Source of the DNA: Zhongshania aliphaticivorans
GTDB taxonomy: Bacteria > Pseudomonadota > Gammaproteobacteria > Pseudomonadales > Spongiibacteraceae
Assembly: GCF_001586255.1 (NCBI RefSeq)
Contig: NZ_CP014544.1
Location: forward strand, 186,001 to 250,000
DNA length: 64,000 nucleotides
Reading direction: 5' to 3'
Position numbers and translations under genes: made by a program. Below the pieces are notes generated by a model that ran no database searches, was not told the origin of the DNA, and saw only the letters and a program-made list of their open reading frames with translations. The first letter of the stretch is position 1. The number at the start of each line of letters is the position of its first letter. Below, piece after piece: positions 3,632-24,010 of this stretch.

Positions 3632-4678
3632 AGTCATACCTGCGCAGGCAGTGATAGGTATCAACCAGAACGAGGTCATACCTGCGCAGGCAGGTATCCA
3701 CGTGAGCGCAGCGAATGCTTTTGCAAGCAGGGCTGATTTTTATACGACGTTGCTAAGATGAGCCCCTGCCTTCGCAGGGGCGACGCTCGAAAGTCGCATG
3801 AGCGATACGGTATGCTCCAGGGTGGCGTCATACCTGCGAAGGCAGTGATGGGTATCAACCAGAACGAGGTCATACCTGCGCAGGCAGGTATCCACGTGAG
3901 CGCAGCGAATGCTTTTGCAAGCAGGGCTAATTTTTATACGACGTTGCTGAGATGGACCCCCTGCCTCCGCAGGGGCGATGCTCGAACGTCGCATGAACGA
4001 TACGATATGCTCCAGCGTGGCGTCATACCTGCGAAGGTAGTGATGGGTATCAACCAGAACGAGGTCATACCTGCGCAGGCAGGTATCCACGTGAGCGCAG
4101 CGAATGCTTTTGCAAGCAGGGCTAATTTTTATACGGCGTTGCTGAGATGGGCCCCTGCCTTCGCAGGGGCGACGCTCGAACGTCGCATGAACGATACGTT
4201 ATGTTCCAGCGTGGCGTCATACCTGCGAAGGCAGTGATGGGTATCAACCAGAACGAGGTCATACCTGCGCAGGCAGGTATCCACGTGAGCGCAGCGAATG
4301 CTTTTGCAAGCAGGGCTGATTTTTATACGACGTTGCTGAGATGGGCCCCTGCCTTCGCAGGGGCGACGCTCGAACGTCGCATGAACGATACGTTATGTTT
4401 CAGCGTGGCGTCATACCTGCGAAGGCAGTGATGGGTATCAACCAGAACGAGGTCATACCTGCGCAGGCAGGTATCCACGTGAGCGCAGCGAATGCTTTTG
4501 CAAGCAGGGCTAATTTTTATACGACGTTGCTGAGATGGGCCCCTGCCTTCGCAGGGGCGACGCTCGAACGTCGCATGAACGATACGGTATGTTTCAGCGT
4601 GGCGTCATACCTGCGAAGGTAGTGATAGATATCAACAGAACGAGGTCATACCTGCGCAGGCAGGTATCCACATGAGCG
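3632..4678. repeat. Tandem array of about 194-bp units of the REP-like family
   Basis: The motif CGAGGTCATACCTGCG recurs at 3671, 3865, 4060, 4254, 4448 and 4641, giving a period of 193-195 bp. Each unit holds two palindromic hairpins, ATACCTGC/GCAGGTAT and CCCCTGC/GCAGGGG, separated by a conserved spacer with GTGAGCGCAGCGAATGC. The array is interrupted by an IS481 element at 4679 and resumes after it. Open frames here (for example 3758-4237 and 4147-4431) are repeat-derived and not credible genes. Confidence 0.93.
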
Positions 4679-5978
4679 GGTACAAACCGGTCACATAGGT
4701 TACAGATTAGCCCGACCACATAGGTAACACTTCTTATCCCACAACGATAAGGAGTTTGTCATGCCTTGGCACAAGACCGACCACGTAAGCGAGCGGGAGC
4801 ATTTCCTAAAAGCCTGGCTCACAGGCCGTCATTCGATGACGGCACTGTGCAGAGCTTTCGGGATCAGTCGCAAGACGGGCCACAAATGGGTCTATCGCCT
4901 TAAAATGGAAGGCATGACTGATTTGTCCGATCGGTCACGAGCACGACACCAGCAAACGCATCAAACGCCTGAATCGATTACCCAGACGCTCATAAACACT
5001 AAATTTGCGTTTCCCGATTGGGGGCCCCGTAAAGTCGTTGCGTATTTACGCAATACCCAGCCAGACTCATGCTGGCCTGCGCACAGCACGGTGAGTGAGA
5101 TTTTCGCTCGCCAAGGGCTTGTAAAGCACCGCGGGAATCGTCGCTATAAGTCACCGGCAAGGACGGCGCCGTTATCTCATGCAAGTGAGCCAAACCGTGT
5201 TTGGAGTGTGGATTTCAAAGGCGACTTTCTGCTGGGCAATCAAAAGCGCTGCTATCCCTTAACCGTATTTGATAATTACAGCCGCTACCTGCTGGACTGC
5301 AAGGGTCTCTACTCAACACACACAGCGCCCGTCATAGCGGCATTTGAGCGTCTGTTTTACGACTATGGCTTGCCGGACTACCTTCGCTCAGACAACGGCA
5401 GTCCGTTTGCGTCTACGCGTATCGGTGGGCTTAGCCAATTCAGCCTATGGTTATTAAAACGAGGAGTGATGCCTGAACGAATACGCCCTGGTCGGCCGCA
5501 AGAAAATGGCCGCCATGAACGCTTTCATCGAAGCTTAAAAGCCGCTGTTTGCAAGCCGCCAAAAGGCGATTTATCCGCGCAGCAGCGCGCCTTTAACCAC
5601 TACCAGTTTAGTTACAACAACTACCGGCCCCATGAGGCGCTCAACGATACGCCACCAGCGCAGCATTACACGCGGTCACCGCGAATTTATACCGGCGAGG
5701 AACAGGAGTTTCACTATCCCGATCACTACGTGATCAGAAAAGTGCGTTCCGATGGGAATATGAAATGGAAGCAGCTACCGATCTATGTCGCCAACTTGCT
5801 CGCGGGAGAATATATCGGCTTGGAGCCTATCGATGATGGCTGCTGGATGACCTATGTATCGACATTGAAATTAGGCATACTCGATGAGCGACAAAAGCGG
5901 ATTATTAGACCCGGACAATGAGTTTGAAGTGTAACCCATGTGCCCGGGCTAAAGTGTAACCCCTCTGACCGGTCGTAC
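4679..5978 (+). mobile_element. IS481-family insertion sequence
   Basis: The element is about 1300 bp. Its ends are imperfect inverted repeats of roughly 50 bp: ACCGGTCACATAGGTTACAG at 4686 matches ACCGGTCAGAGGGGTTACAC read inward from the right end. It is flanked by AGCG on both sides (4675-4678 and 5979-5982), consistent with a 4-bp target duplication. Joining the flanks restores an intact 194-bp repeat unit (TGAGCGCAGCGAATG). It encodes one intact transposase and looks recent. Confidence 0.88.
4761..5921 (+). CDS. IS481-family transposase
   Basis: A 386-residue DDE transposase. An N-terminal helix-turn-helix region (about residues 20-60, ALCRAFGISRKTGHKWV) binds the ends. It is followed by an integrase core with Asp151 (VWSVDFKG), Asp211 (LRSDNGSPF) and Glu248 (RPQENGRHERFHR), spaced as in the IS481/IS3 group. 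The C-terminal part (SYNNYRPHEALNDTPP) is typical of the family. The frame is intact and the gene fills most of the element, with an AAGGAG ribosome binding site upstream. Confidence 0.95.
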   Translation: MPWHKTDHVSEREHFLKAWLTGRHSMTALCRAFGISRKTGHKWVYRLKMEGMTDLSDRSRARHQQTHQTPESITQTLINTKFAFPDWGPRKVVAYLRNTQPDSCWPAHSTVSEIFARQGLVKHRGNRRYKSPARTAPLSHASEPNRVWSVDFKGDFLLGNQKRCYPLTVFDNYSRYLLDCKGLYSTHTAPVIAAFERLFYDYGLPDYLRSDNGSPFASTRIGGLSQFSLWLLKRGVMPERIRPGRPQENGRHERFHRSLKAAVCKPPKGDLSAQQRAFNHYQFSYNNYRPHEALNDTPPAQHYTRSPRIYTGEEQEFHYPDHYVIRKVRSDGNMKWKQLPIYVANLLAGEYIGLEPIDDGCWMTYVSTLKLGILDERQKRIIRPGQ

Positions 5979-6372
5979 AGCGCAGCGAATGCTTTTGCAA
6001 GCAGGGCTAATTTTTATACGACGTTGCTGAGATGGGCCCCTGCCTTCGCAGGGGCGACGCTCGAAAGTCGCATGAGCGATACGTTATGTTTCAGCGTGGC
6101 GTCATACCTGCGAAGGCAGTGATGGGTATCAACCAGAACGAGGTCATACCTGCGCAGGCAGGTATCCACGTGAGCGCAGCGAATGCTTTTGCAAGCAGCG
6201 CTAATTTTTATACGACGTTGCTGAGATGGGCCCCTGCCTCCGCAGGGGCGACGCTCGAACGTCGCATGAACGATACGGTATGCTCCAGGGTGGCGTCATA
6301 CCTACGTAGGCAGGGATAGGTATGGACCAGAACGAGGTCATACCTGCGCAGGCAGGTATCCATGTGAGCGAC
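5979..6372. repeat. Continuation of the 194-bp REP-like array
   Basis: The interrupted unit resumes at AGCGCAGCGAATGC. Further CGAGGTCATACCTGCG anchors at 6139 and 6333 keep the 194-bp period. From about 6373 to 6564 the sequence is non-repetitive and contains no gene or sigma-54 motif I can support. Confidence 0.9.
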
Positions 6373-15189: not shown

Positions 15190-15503
15190 AAAATCATTCG
15201 CTGCGCTCACATGGATCCCTGCCTGCGCAGGGATGACAAAATAGAATTATGAAGTTGAGCTTTCAGTCACTCCTGCGTAGGCAGGAGTCTATTGCTGCAA
15301 TGGAGTTGGGGCTTAGACGCTGCCTCAATAAGCATTCGCTGCGCTCATATGGATCCCTGCCTACGCAGGGAAGACGTATAGGGAGTCGAAGTATGACGGA
15401 ACCTGCGCCTGACTCAATTAATCGTCACTCCTGCGAAGGCAGGAGTCTATTTCTGTAGCAGCGTTCGGACTTAGGCGTTGAGCGATAAAGCATTCGCTGC
15501 GCT
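15190..15503. repeat. REP-like repeats upstream of the IS110 element
   Basis: Copies of CATTCGCTGCGCTCACATGG followed by the hairpin ATCCCTGC/GCAGGGAT, and of the CTCCTGCGWAGGCAGGAG hairpin, fill the stretch after cyaY. The last copy is cut at CGCTGCGCT (15495-15503) by the IS110 insertion. Confidence 0.9.
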
Positions 15504-15514
15504 TGTATGGTATT

Positions 15515-15695
15515 CCCAGCCTTGATTATGGATGATATCAAGGCGCCGGGGAGGTGGAGGCTGGTCGCTACGCATCCGCCACGAAAATCGTGTACGGCCC
15601 ACGTGAGAGTTTGCCCTGCCTCCCCACTCATCCAAAAGCGCCTATAAAGAATCCAGCCCCTGTACGGCCGATTTCCGCAAGCTAGCGCCAGTGAT
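15515..15695 (+). ncRNA. Predicted IS110 bridge RNA
   Basis: The left non-coding end folds into a perfect 8-bp hairpin GCCTTGAT/ATCAAGGC (15519-15526 with 15537-15544). A large loop follows, closed by GGGGAGG/CCTCCCC (15548-15554 with 15619-15625). Inside the loop TCGCTACGC (15565-15573) equals the top strand of the left target half, and CCACGTGAG (15599-15607) is complementary to the right half CTCACATGG at 8 of 9 bases. A small hairpin CACGA/TCGTG sits between them. This is the target-binding-loop layout known for IS621. A second, weaker loop (15638-15688) contains AGAATC, matching the right end at 16689-16694. RNA ends are estimates. Confidence 0.7.
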
Positions 15696-15734
15696 GAACC
15701 CCGACTATGTATAGATTAGACCGGAGGATCGCCC

Positions 15735-16670
15735 ATGACAATGCACGCTACATTAGAAGGTCTCGGAGTTGATGTCGCTAAAGAGTGGCTCGATATTTTC
15801 AACGGTTGTGTTGTTGTTCGAATCGATAATACGGCAAAGGCAATTCGGGCCTACCTAAAATCACTACCGAGTGACATGCCCATCGCCGTTGAGGCAACCA
15901 ACTCCTACCATGAAGAATTTGTACACTTGGCGCTTGCTACCGGCCATACCATTTACTTGGTTGATGCCTGCAAGGTCGCTCGTTATCGAGAAGCCGTTGG
16001 CGTGAGAATAAAAACGGATGGTGCGGATGCACAGCTTCTACTTCGTTATCTTAACGCTGAAATAGCTCATCTACGGCCTTATCAACTGCCGCCTAAAGCA
16101 GTTAAACGAATGATGACCTTACTCCGAGCACGAGCAAAGCTAACCCACTCAAAGGCGGCGCTAAAACTATCATTAGCGGGAATTGGCGAAATAGCACAAA
16201 CCCGCAACGCACTGTTCGCCCGCTTTGATCATGCTATCGCGGTGATAGACAAAAAACTTGTTGAGTGTGTCAAACAGTCAGGGTACATCGATGACTACAA
16301 CCGCTGCTTAACCATTAATGGCGTTGGCCCCCTCAATGCAGCTGCTCTGGTCGCCTTTTATCATCGCGGCGAGTTTAGTAAAGCTGATTCGTTTGTGTCA
16401 TTTATGGGGCTTGATGTGCGGGTAAAAGAATCGGGACGGTATAGGGGAAAGCGCAAGCTCACTAAGAAAGGGAATCCCGAGATTCGGCGATTGTTGTTTA
16501 ACGCGGCTAGAGTCGGTGCAAGAACGGAGCAATGGAAGCCTTACTATGATGCTTTACGTGAGCGAGGGCTTACGACAACTGCCGCTGCTGTCGCAGTCTC
16601 TCGCAAGATTGCTAAGTTGGCATTTGCTTTGATGAGAGATCAAACAGAATATCAGCCAAGAATGGCGTAA
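15735..16670 (+). CDS. IS110-family recombinase (transposase)
   Basis: A 311-residue DEDD recombinase. The N-terminal RuvC-like domain has Asp13 (GVDVAKEWLDI), Glu53 (AVEATNSYHE), and Asp95/Asp98 (TDGADAQLL). The C-terminal Transposase_20 domain has INGVGPLNAAAL and the conserved serine segment VKESGRYRGKRKLTKKGN (Ser233 is the likely nucleophile). The frame is intact, with CGGAGG upstream of the ATG. Related enzymes use a bridge RNA to pair a donor with a target; the candidate RNA lies immediately upstream. Confidence 0.95.
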   Translation: MTMHATLEGLGVDVAKEWLDIFNGCVVVRIDNTAKAIRAYLKSLPSDMPIAVEATNSYHEEFVHLALATGHTIYLVDACKVARYREAVGVRIKTDGADAQLLLRYLNAEIAHLRPYQLPPKAVKRMMTLLRARAKLTHSKAALKLSLAGIGEIAQTRNALFARFDHAIAVIDKKLVECVKQSGYIDDYNRCLTINGVGPLNAAALVAFYHRGEFSKADSFVSFMGLDVRVKESGRYRGKRKLTKKGNPEIRRLLFNAARVGARTEQWKPYYDALRERGLTTTAAAVAVSRKIAKLAFALMRDQTEYQPRMA

Positions 16671-16695
16671 AAGCTTGCCTCTGAACATAGAATCT

Positions 16696-16990
16696 CACAT
16701 GGATCCCTGCCTGCGCAGGGATGACAAAATAGAATTATGAAGTTGAGCTTTCAGTCACCCCTGCGGAGGCAGGGGTCCATCTCAGCAACGGAGCGCAAAG
16801 TTAACACTTCCACCACAGACATTCGCTGCGCTCACATGGATACCTTCCTGCGAAGGTATGACCAAATGTCCTAAACACAAACGTTCCGTCACTCCTGCGA
16901 AGCCGGACTCTGCCCCTGCGAAGGCAGGGGCATCTAGCTACGAAGCCGGTATTGCTCTAACCGCACATAAATTTGGCGTCTCCGGTCCAG
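16696..16990. repeat. REP-like repeats downstream of the IS110 element
   Basis: The interrupted unit resumes at CACATGGATCC. Further hairpins follow, including ATACCTTC/GAAGGTAT near 16840 and CCCCTGC/GCAGGGG. No gene is seen before the end of cyaA at 17020. Confidence 0.9.
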
Positions 16991-23189: not shown

Positions 23190-24010
23190 GCTAAAGCAAT
23201 CGTCGCTCCTGCACAGGGATGACGATTAGGGAATTGCGGTACATACCTGAGTAATTATGACGGCAACTAGACCAAGCTAAATCAGCCGTCACTCCTGCGG
23301 AGGCAGGAGTCCATACCAGCAACGGAGTTCGGGCTTAAACGTTAGCGCGATAAGGCATTCGCTACGCTCACATGGATCCCTGCCTGCGCAGGGATGACTT
23401 AAATTTAAATCGTCGTTGCGGTGAAGGATGAACGTCAACAGAGAATTAAACTGGCGTCACTTCCAAGAAAGCATAGCGCCAACTACACCAACTGTCACTC
23501 CTGCGAAGTCGGACTCTGCCCCTGCGAAGGCAGGGGGTCCATCCCAGCAACGGAGTTCGGGCTTAGGCGTTAGCGCGACAAGGCATTCACTGCGCTCACA
23601 TGGATCCCTGCCTGCGCAGGGATGACAAAATAAATTCAGCTCGCCACCCCACGCAAGCATGACGGTATAACACGCCACACTAAATCAACTGTCACTCCTG
23701 CGAAAGGCAGGCGTTAATAGAGAATTAAACTGCTGTCACTCCTGCGAAGTCGGACTCTGCCCCTGCGAAGGCAGGGGGGCCATCCCAGCAACGGAGTTCG
23801 GGCTTAGGCGTTAGCGCGACAAGGCATTCACTGCGCTCACATGGATCCCTGCCTGCGCAGGGATGACTTAAATTTACATCGTCGTTGCGGTGAAGGCTGA
23901 ACGTCAAGAGAGAATTAAACTGCTGTCACCCGCACGAAGACCTAGCGCCAACCACACCAGCCAACTGTCACTCCTGCGAAGGCAGGAGTCCACCCCAGCA
24001 ACGGAGTCGA
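23190..24010. repeat. REP-like repeat cluster
   Basis: About 800 bp without a gene. At least four complete units (hairpin CTCCTGCGAAGGCAGGAG type, spacer with CAGCAACGGAGTTCGGGCTTA, CATTCGCT-CATGG motif, hairpin ATCCCTGC/GCAGGGAT) recur near 23290-23400, 23490-23625, 23735-23865 and 23965-24010. Linkers between them also repeat. Confidence 0.9.

Follow-up and report, generated by a model that had tools for sequence, protein, structure and literature searches.

A single-copy IS110-group element of Zhongshania aliphaticivorans with a probable bridge RNA whose target guides spell a dispersed repeat of its host

The E. coli insertion sequence IS621 encodes a bridge RNA in its left end, consisting of a 5' hairpin, a target loop and a donor loop. 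Its guides address opposite strands, its core is CT, a promoter forms at the junction of the joined ends, and its targets are REP sequences (PMC11208160, PMC11208158). According to the same source, most insertions of IS621 are at a sequence that differs from its guide at one position (PMC11208160). Likewise, the seekRNAs of IS110/IS1111 elements such as ISEc21 and ISEc11 come from a non-coding region and match both target strands, and natural redirection by a change of guide has been reported for these elements (PMC11187229). Specific insertion into REP sequences is described for ISPpu9, ISPpu10, ISPa11, ISPsy8 and others (PMC1525189); for the ISPpu9 group this description dates from 2006, before guide RNAs of the IS110 family were reported.

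We examined a stretch of 64,000 nucleotides of the Z. aliphaticivorans genome (the window; coordinates are window positions on the + strand unless stated otherwise) that carries an element of this kind. The predicted bridge RNA layout, opposite-strand guides, CT core, junction promoter and REP-like target all resemble those described for IS621. The element differs from IS621 in its distant recombinase (61.7 bits over 298 residues) and in its host repeat. Furthermore, the right guide of its clade appears to follow about 5 non-core bases, compared with 2 in the 11-base IS621 target ATCAGGCCTAC. With ISPpu9, ISPpu10, ISPa11 and ISPsy8, described as REP-specific, it shares insertion into a REP-like repeat, a likeness by published description. 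With ISEc21 and ISEc11 it shares a predicted RNA from a non-coding region that matches both target strands, whereas the targets of those elements are others and, as described, the IS1111 RNA region lies downstream with the guide order reversed. IS1000 of Thermus, among the nearest annotated elements in plasmid records, has an IS110-group recombinase with ~28-29% identity over 94% of the query.

The element is complete, 1,192 bp long (15504-16695), and present as a single copy in the 4.2-Mb host genome. It is inserted at a CT core within a copy of the host's dispersed palindromic repeat, with the layout TTCGCTGCG-CT / TGTATGG...CATAGAAT-CT / CACATGGATCCC; in short form, the occupied site reads TCGCTGCG-CT / element / CT-CACATGG. 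The left half of the target repeat, TCGCTGCG plus the left core CT (15502-15503), lies at 15494..15503 and follows a pattern found 43 times in the host genome; the right half, CACATGG, lies at 16696..16702. The left non-coding end (LE, 15504..15734), the putative source of the bridge RNA, starts with TGTATGGT, kept in relatives as CTTGTATG followed by G or T. The right end, CATAGAATCT with the right core CT at 16694-16695 (16686..16695), is also conserved in relatives. The LE spans 231 bp upstream of the recombinase gene, and 25 bp separate the stop codon from the right end. None of the seven inverted repeat pairs that we found joins the two ends, and the element thus shows the IS110-group trait of a long non-coding region upstream of the recombinase together with a lack of terminal inverted repeats. 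When one repeat copy was folded, it formed a hairpin of 8 bp, 7 bases away from the core, indicating that the element enters beside the palindrome and not inside it.

The recombinase (15735..16670, 311 aa) has an intact reading frame and carries the DEDD_Tnp_IS110 and Transposase_20 domains. It scores 151.3 bits against the NCBIfam equivalog 'IS110 family RNA-guided transposase' (cut-off 140). Among proteins of solved structure it comes closest to IS621 and ISCro4 (profile E 6.1e-34 and 4.6e-34). Residues D13, E53, D95, D98 and S233 are invariant in our protein alignment (A1); by alignment to IS621 they are probably the catalytic residues. This domain content, a DEDD RuvC-like N-terminal domain with a Transposase_20 domain that holds the conserved serine, points to IS110-group membership. 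We searched 96 genomes as relatives, the own genome among them; 30 of these have a match at E <= 0.001, the nearest outside the own genome being 32% identical. Other public sources list a protein of 95% identity and nine more of 72-77%, all on contigs no longer than 6.1 kb; the nearest protein relatives (P0001-P0012) span 69-95%. Its single copy, the 32% identity of the nearest match in another genome and the 95% identical protein elsewhere suggest that the element is a fairly recent arrival.

Relatives for comparison were species representatives and bins, sampled unevenly. A scan of genome contigs with the single protein confirmed no relatives. The scan with the alignment yielded 55 related loci (gammaproteobacteria, betaproteobacteria, Nitrospirota and others, by title), and found none among viral contigs. 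Eleven of the 55 were left unused, their gene being truncated at a contig end, and 10 loci from other searches were added. Of the window and 54 loci so examined, 36 with a readable left end were aligned; L010, L047 and L089, in which the left-end motif is present, were left out by hand. Dropping the same-genome loci L065, L068 and L069 gave 33 elements, window included, of which 29 or 30 had enough right flank for the right-side tests.

The fold of the left end was assessed with a covariance model built from 28 of the 33 elements. The window was kept out of it to avoid circularity, as were L085, L040, L044 and L046. The model matches 15520..15696 over all 168 model positions with 87.5 bits (E 2.7e-20 for the whole host genome); the next-best match in that genome is a weak fragment of 11.1 bits (E 5). 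For 11 of the 18 pairs predicted, the 28-sequence alignment has one or more sequences in which both partners have changed and still pair. The model therefore bears out the conserved fold, for which the preliminary description had asked such a check, and it predicts a bridge RNA architecture of three parts. These are a 5' stem-loop (15519..15544; GCCTTGAT at 15519-15526 with ATCAAGGC at 15537-15544), a target-binding loop (15548..15625) closed by GGGGAGG (15548-15554) and CCTCCCC (15619-15625), and a donor-binding loop (15637..15689; AGCGCC...GCTAGCGCC) whose outer helix has compensatory changes in relatives. The 5' hairpin and the GGGGAGG/CCTCCCC loop had already been proposed; their strings lie where that proposal put them, and the predicted single-sequence fold includes both stems. 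By energy, this single-sequence fold does not stand out (z -1.23, equalled by 24 of 200 shuffles), so we relied on the family model instead. The RNAalifold consensus of the RNA alignment (A2) lacks the target-loop stem, probably through misalignment of its G-rich arm, although the stem is present in the single-sequence fold. Rfam gave no match at gathering score in the window.

Within the target loop, two strings match the insertion site. The left target guide would be CGCTACG plus the core-facing CA (15566..15574), which matches 6 of 7 non-core positions with a mismatch at -3; the right would be ACGTG plus the core AG (15601..15607), matching 4 of 5 with a mismatch at +4. Together they match 12 of 14 effective positions at the occupied site. 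Neither mismatch is a G-U wobble: in one A faces C, in the other C faces A. Opposite the second core position the left guide carries A instead of T, a feature shared with 12 others of the 33 elements. The preliminary description had drawn both guides as 9-mers: TCGCTACGC at 15565-15573 (that is, TCGCTACG plus C) as identical to the left half of the repeat target, and CCACGTGAG at 15599-15607 (CCACGTG plus AG) as the reverse complement of the right half. Each matches the occupied site at 8 of 9 positions, as it had said, and the chance of such a match or better at one fixed place is 1.1e-4 per guide. The exact copies it had pointed to also exist: the left half as TCGCTACGCTCACATGG at 23359, and the right half in the first array, where six copies (3698 to 6166, minus strand) read TCGCTGCGCTCACGTGG. 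The place and the match of the 9-mers thus stand, but their outer bases are probably not guide, since only about 7 left and 5 right non-core positions follow the target in relatives.

The repeat is abundant in the host. The pattern TCGCTNCGCTCACNTGG, which is the 17-mer target outside two variable positions, has 43 sites genome-wide, and its reversed control none. The exact guide-encoded 17-mer TCGCTACGCTCACGTGG occurs in 4 copies; its version at the occupied site is TCGCTGCGCTCACATGG. In the window, 34 uninterrupted sites lie within 4 mismatches of the guide-encoded 17-mer, typically reading ...CATTCGCTRCGCTCACRTGGAT..., compared with 1.4 in a shuffled window preserving base composition only. 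A REP sequence in the strict sense would be linked to a RAYT gene of the host. The repeat has the 8-bp hairpin beside the core and is abundant. One Y1_Tnp (RAYT-like) match is found in the host genome (G000:C1:4143266-4143595, a 157-aa open frame), and by eye we noticed no repeat copy in the 1.1 kb around it.

Across the 33 elements, guides change together with flanks. At fixed anchors, the left guides give 173 identities with their own flanks (shuffled mean 81.4; 33 elements) and the right guides 158 (shuffled mean 87.2; 29 elements). When the anchor was allowed to slip by up to 3 bases and shuffles were given equal freedom, the left guides reached 196 of 231 identities (shuffled mean 118.8, maximum 144; 33 elements) and the right guides 139 of 150 (shuffled mean 92.8, maximum 112; 30 elements). 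In none of the four comparisons did any of 20,000 shuffles reach the observed value. With the slipping anchor, no other target matched better than the element's own for 29 of 33 left and 26 of 30 right guides. These statistics ignore relatedness of the elements, which comparisons of near-sisters correct partly. The left guides of L079, L080 and L081 (CGCTCCG, CGCTTCG and CGCTGCG) are identical to their own flanks, as are those of L084 and L087 (CGACAAG and CGACAGG). In L049 the left core is TT and the left guide likewise has TT. Weak left guides (below 5/7) are found in 3 of 33 elements, L054, L046 and, as anchored, L085, whose left flank matches 9/10 at a nearby place outside the anchor (LE+63). 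Among 29 right guides, those of L084 (2/5) and L087 (3/5) are weak. An alignment of relatives with their insertion flanks was the comparison that the preliminary description had called for, and unchanged guides at unrelated sites, which it had named as speaking against guidance, are not what the relatives present. Together, these data indicate that the left guide corresponds to the top strand of the left target and the right guide to the reverse complement of the right target, both reaching the core and covarying with the site.

The same alignments delimit the target. The position profile takes in 30 of 33 guides on the left (5/7 or better) and 27 of 29 on the right (4/5 or better). Identity on the left is 24-29 of 30 at -7 to -1 and 17 of 30 at -8; on the right it is 25-27 of 27 at +1 to +5 and 10 of 27 at +6. 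These proportions are somewhat inflated, since only better-matching guides entered, each at its best anchor within 3 bases. The drop beyond -7 and +5 suggests an effective target in the clade of about 7 + CT + 5, or about 14 bases. The most mismatched left positions are -3 and -7.

The donor side behaves likewise. The putative left donor guide AAAGAATC (15646..15653) matches the right end of the element, ATAGAATC, and in the right donor guide GCAAG (15677..15681) CAAG can pair with CTTG of the left end. (A/G)GAATC on the left and GCAAG on the right are common to most relatives, as are the matching ends, and deviant ends have guides that follow them: CATAGGATCT with AAAGGATC (L061) and AAGGGATC (L046), CATAGAACCT with AAGGAACC (L088), and CTTATATGG (CTTAT) with the guide ATAAG (L060). 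In L085 donor guide and end also change together. The donor guides thus appear to be read against the element's own ends. The earlier remark that the donor loop is the weaker part was right, yet the match is better than it had supposed, AAAGAATC and GCAAG lying at the conserved donor-guide places of the family.

A candidate promoter spans the junction of right and left ends in a circular form. A -35-like TTGCCT in the right end (16675..16680; 4/6 to TTGACA) and a -10-like TATGGT (15506..15511) face each other only when the ends are joined, as TTGCCT-17-TATGGT with a 17-bp spacer; on the + strand of the integrated element the promoter scan found no promoter-like site. Relatives have a -35-like hexamer 17 bp before TATG(G/T)T. 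At this spacing, 30 of 30 readable junctions match TTGACA at 3 or more of 6 positions and 21 of 30 at 4 or more (mean 4.27), compared with means of 0.37 to 2.83 for the other 15 spacers tried between 10 and 25.

From the ends, core, guides and fold, the target and donor covariation and the abundance of the repeat, all of them features of sequence, we put the probability at roughly 95% that this left-end feature represents the bridge RNA of an insertion sequence of the IS110 group, similar to IS621, with target guides that spell the host's dispersed palindromic repeat. The preliminary description had proposed guidance by RNA to abundant REP-like repeats, and covariation, the conserved fold and repeat abundance in the genomes of host and relatives uphold it. 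By analogy with IS621, transcription, binding, strand exchange and mobility of this copy may be pictured as follows. The element would be excised as a circle; joining its right end to its left end would restore a sigma-70-like promoter, from which the left-end RNA would be transcribed. In the donor loop, AAAGAATC would pair with the right end of the element and CAAG with the left end, and the RuvC-like/serine recombinase would then join element and target at the CT core. Since the target guides spell the dispersed repeat, its many copies are possible landing sites.

Several points count against the bridge RNA reading: the weak MFE z-score, the single copy with no match above 32% identity in the other genomes searched, the one mismatch per guide at the occupied site, the -35 box of only 4/6, the missing promoter-like site on the + strand of the integrated element, the weak guides of a few relatives and the single guided site in two relatives' genomes. 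In an unlikely alternative, which the single copy, the guide mismatches and the -35 box would also fit, the element has a real bridge RNA but is itself a relic, its target guides having drifted out of use. The host has four exact copies of the 17-mer that the guides encode, however, an outcome hardly expected from drift alone, and position -3 is mismatched in 6 of 30 elements, of which the window is one and five are others. The intact reading frame and the 95% identical protein elsewhere also argue against a relic.

Far less probable is that the left end serves only as a structured 5' leader regulating translation of the recombinase, with the protein choosing the target. The ISPpu9 5'-UTR is reported to be structured and regulated by small RNAs (PMC8450116), and some relatives of our element show a second pairing, between the RNA 3' tail and the 5' strand. 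Covariation with target and donor is nevertheless unexpected of a mere leader, and RNA guidance is established for IS621 (PMC11208160). A leader role alongside the guide role could coexist. It is barely credible that the left end captured pieces of host repeat DNA and that these only look like guides. The strings do resemble the host repeat, but they lie apart and on opposite strands, in positions that the RNA alignment fixes, and the same two places mostly hold matching strings in 33 elements with quite different flanks.

Guided sites that are host repeats occur among relatives too. For nine hand-chosen hosts of the 32 relatives, plus our own host, we searched the genome with patterns written from occupied sites and guides, most with 1-3 ambiguous bases. 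Two Nitrotoga and a Piscinibacter genome hold 9, 12 and 39 matches, and two Alcanivorax genomes and a Pseudomonadales bin 40, 30 and 7. Ectothiorhodospiraceae WFHF3C12, whose pattern has no ambiguous base, holds 73 further matches, and two Nitrospirota bins have the guided site in 1 copy each; all reversed controls gave 0. The guided site is therefore a host repeat in 8 of the 10 genomes (7-73 matches), or 7 of the 9 relatives, and the repeats differ between host groups. WFHF3C12 carries nine contig-end loci of a relative (L064-L072; at least 5 copies), with longer readable flank at four left and five right ends. Its left guide GACGCCG is exact in 3 of the 4 readable left flanks and matches 5/7 in the fourth, and all 9 right flanks read CCCAC after the core, matched by the right guide.

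Counted by eye among the variants each pattern allows, the left guide matches the commoner repeat variant in G828 (7/9), G829 (7/12), G830 (23/39), G832 (22/30) and G833 (6/7); G831 is tied at 20/40, with 15 of the other 20 in one array. At position -3, our own host has G in 24 of its 43 sites, A, the base of the guide, in 14 and T in 5. A rule by which guides always match the commonest variant therefore fails, the guide variant there accounting for 14/43. The overall tally, 5 of 7 hosts with one tie and the own host against, is suggestive only. It is conceivable, with the odds somewhat against it, that this compact (~310 aa) IS110 clade continually rewrites both guides to the dispersed repeat of its current host, so that a host switch is a guide switch.

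REP targeting by a bridge RNA is published for IS621, so the idea of the preliminary description was right but not new; the element is clearly a new example of a known mechanism, an outcome well supported and largely expected. A search by titles and abstract openings, with most subscription journals outside its range, found no paper devoted to guides following host repeats. The element is a clear-cut, easily read example of a probably RNA-guided transposon with guides that encode its host's own repeat, and its 32 relatives let guide and target be read side by side. The effective target of about 14 bases (7 + CT + 5) would be longer than the 11 described for IS621. The clade offers compact candidate recombinases for testing, and how guides follow the repeats of a new host becomes accessible to direct study.

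The 3' tail of the bridge RNA, CCCCGACAAG, can pair with the strand of the 5' hairpin and the target-loop base. Both motifs occur in 22 of 33 elements, with 211 pairs (G-U allowed) compared with a shuffled mean of 191.6 (0 of 20,000 shuffles). The pairing is complete, 11/11, in L057 (1279-1488) and L059 (1245-1454), a possible alternative fold near the recombinase start. At the outer five positions it is weaker, 6 of 20,000 shuffles reaching the observed 82/110, and the window pairs at 6/11 only; we therefore do not claim that pairing of the tail (CCCCGRC..) with the strand before the target loop acts as a switch.

The first repeat array also contains an IS481-type transposase gene (rve + LZ_Tnp_IS481, 4761-5921). 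By eye, the ends of this element lie near 4676 and 5980, abutting CACATGAGCG and GCGCAGCGAATGC, within a few bases of the repeat point used by the IS110 element. Furthermore, one half of the target is TCGCTNCGCT-like in L079, L080, L081, L049 and the element of the window, which live in distant hosts; a Nitrospirota bin, for example, has CTCGCTTCGCT and a gammaproteobacterial bin TTCACTGCGTT. This may point to a repeat motif that several phyla share.
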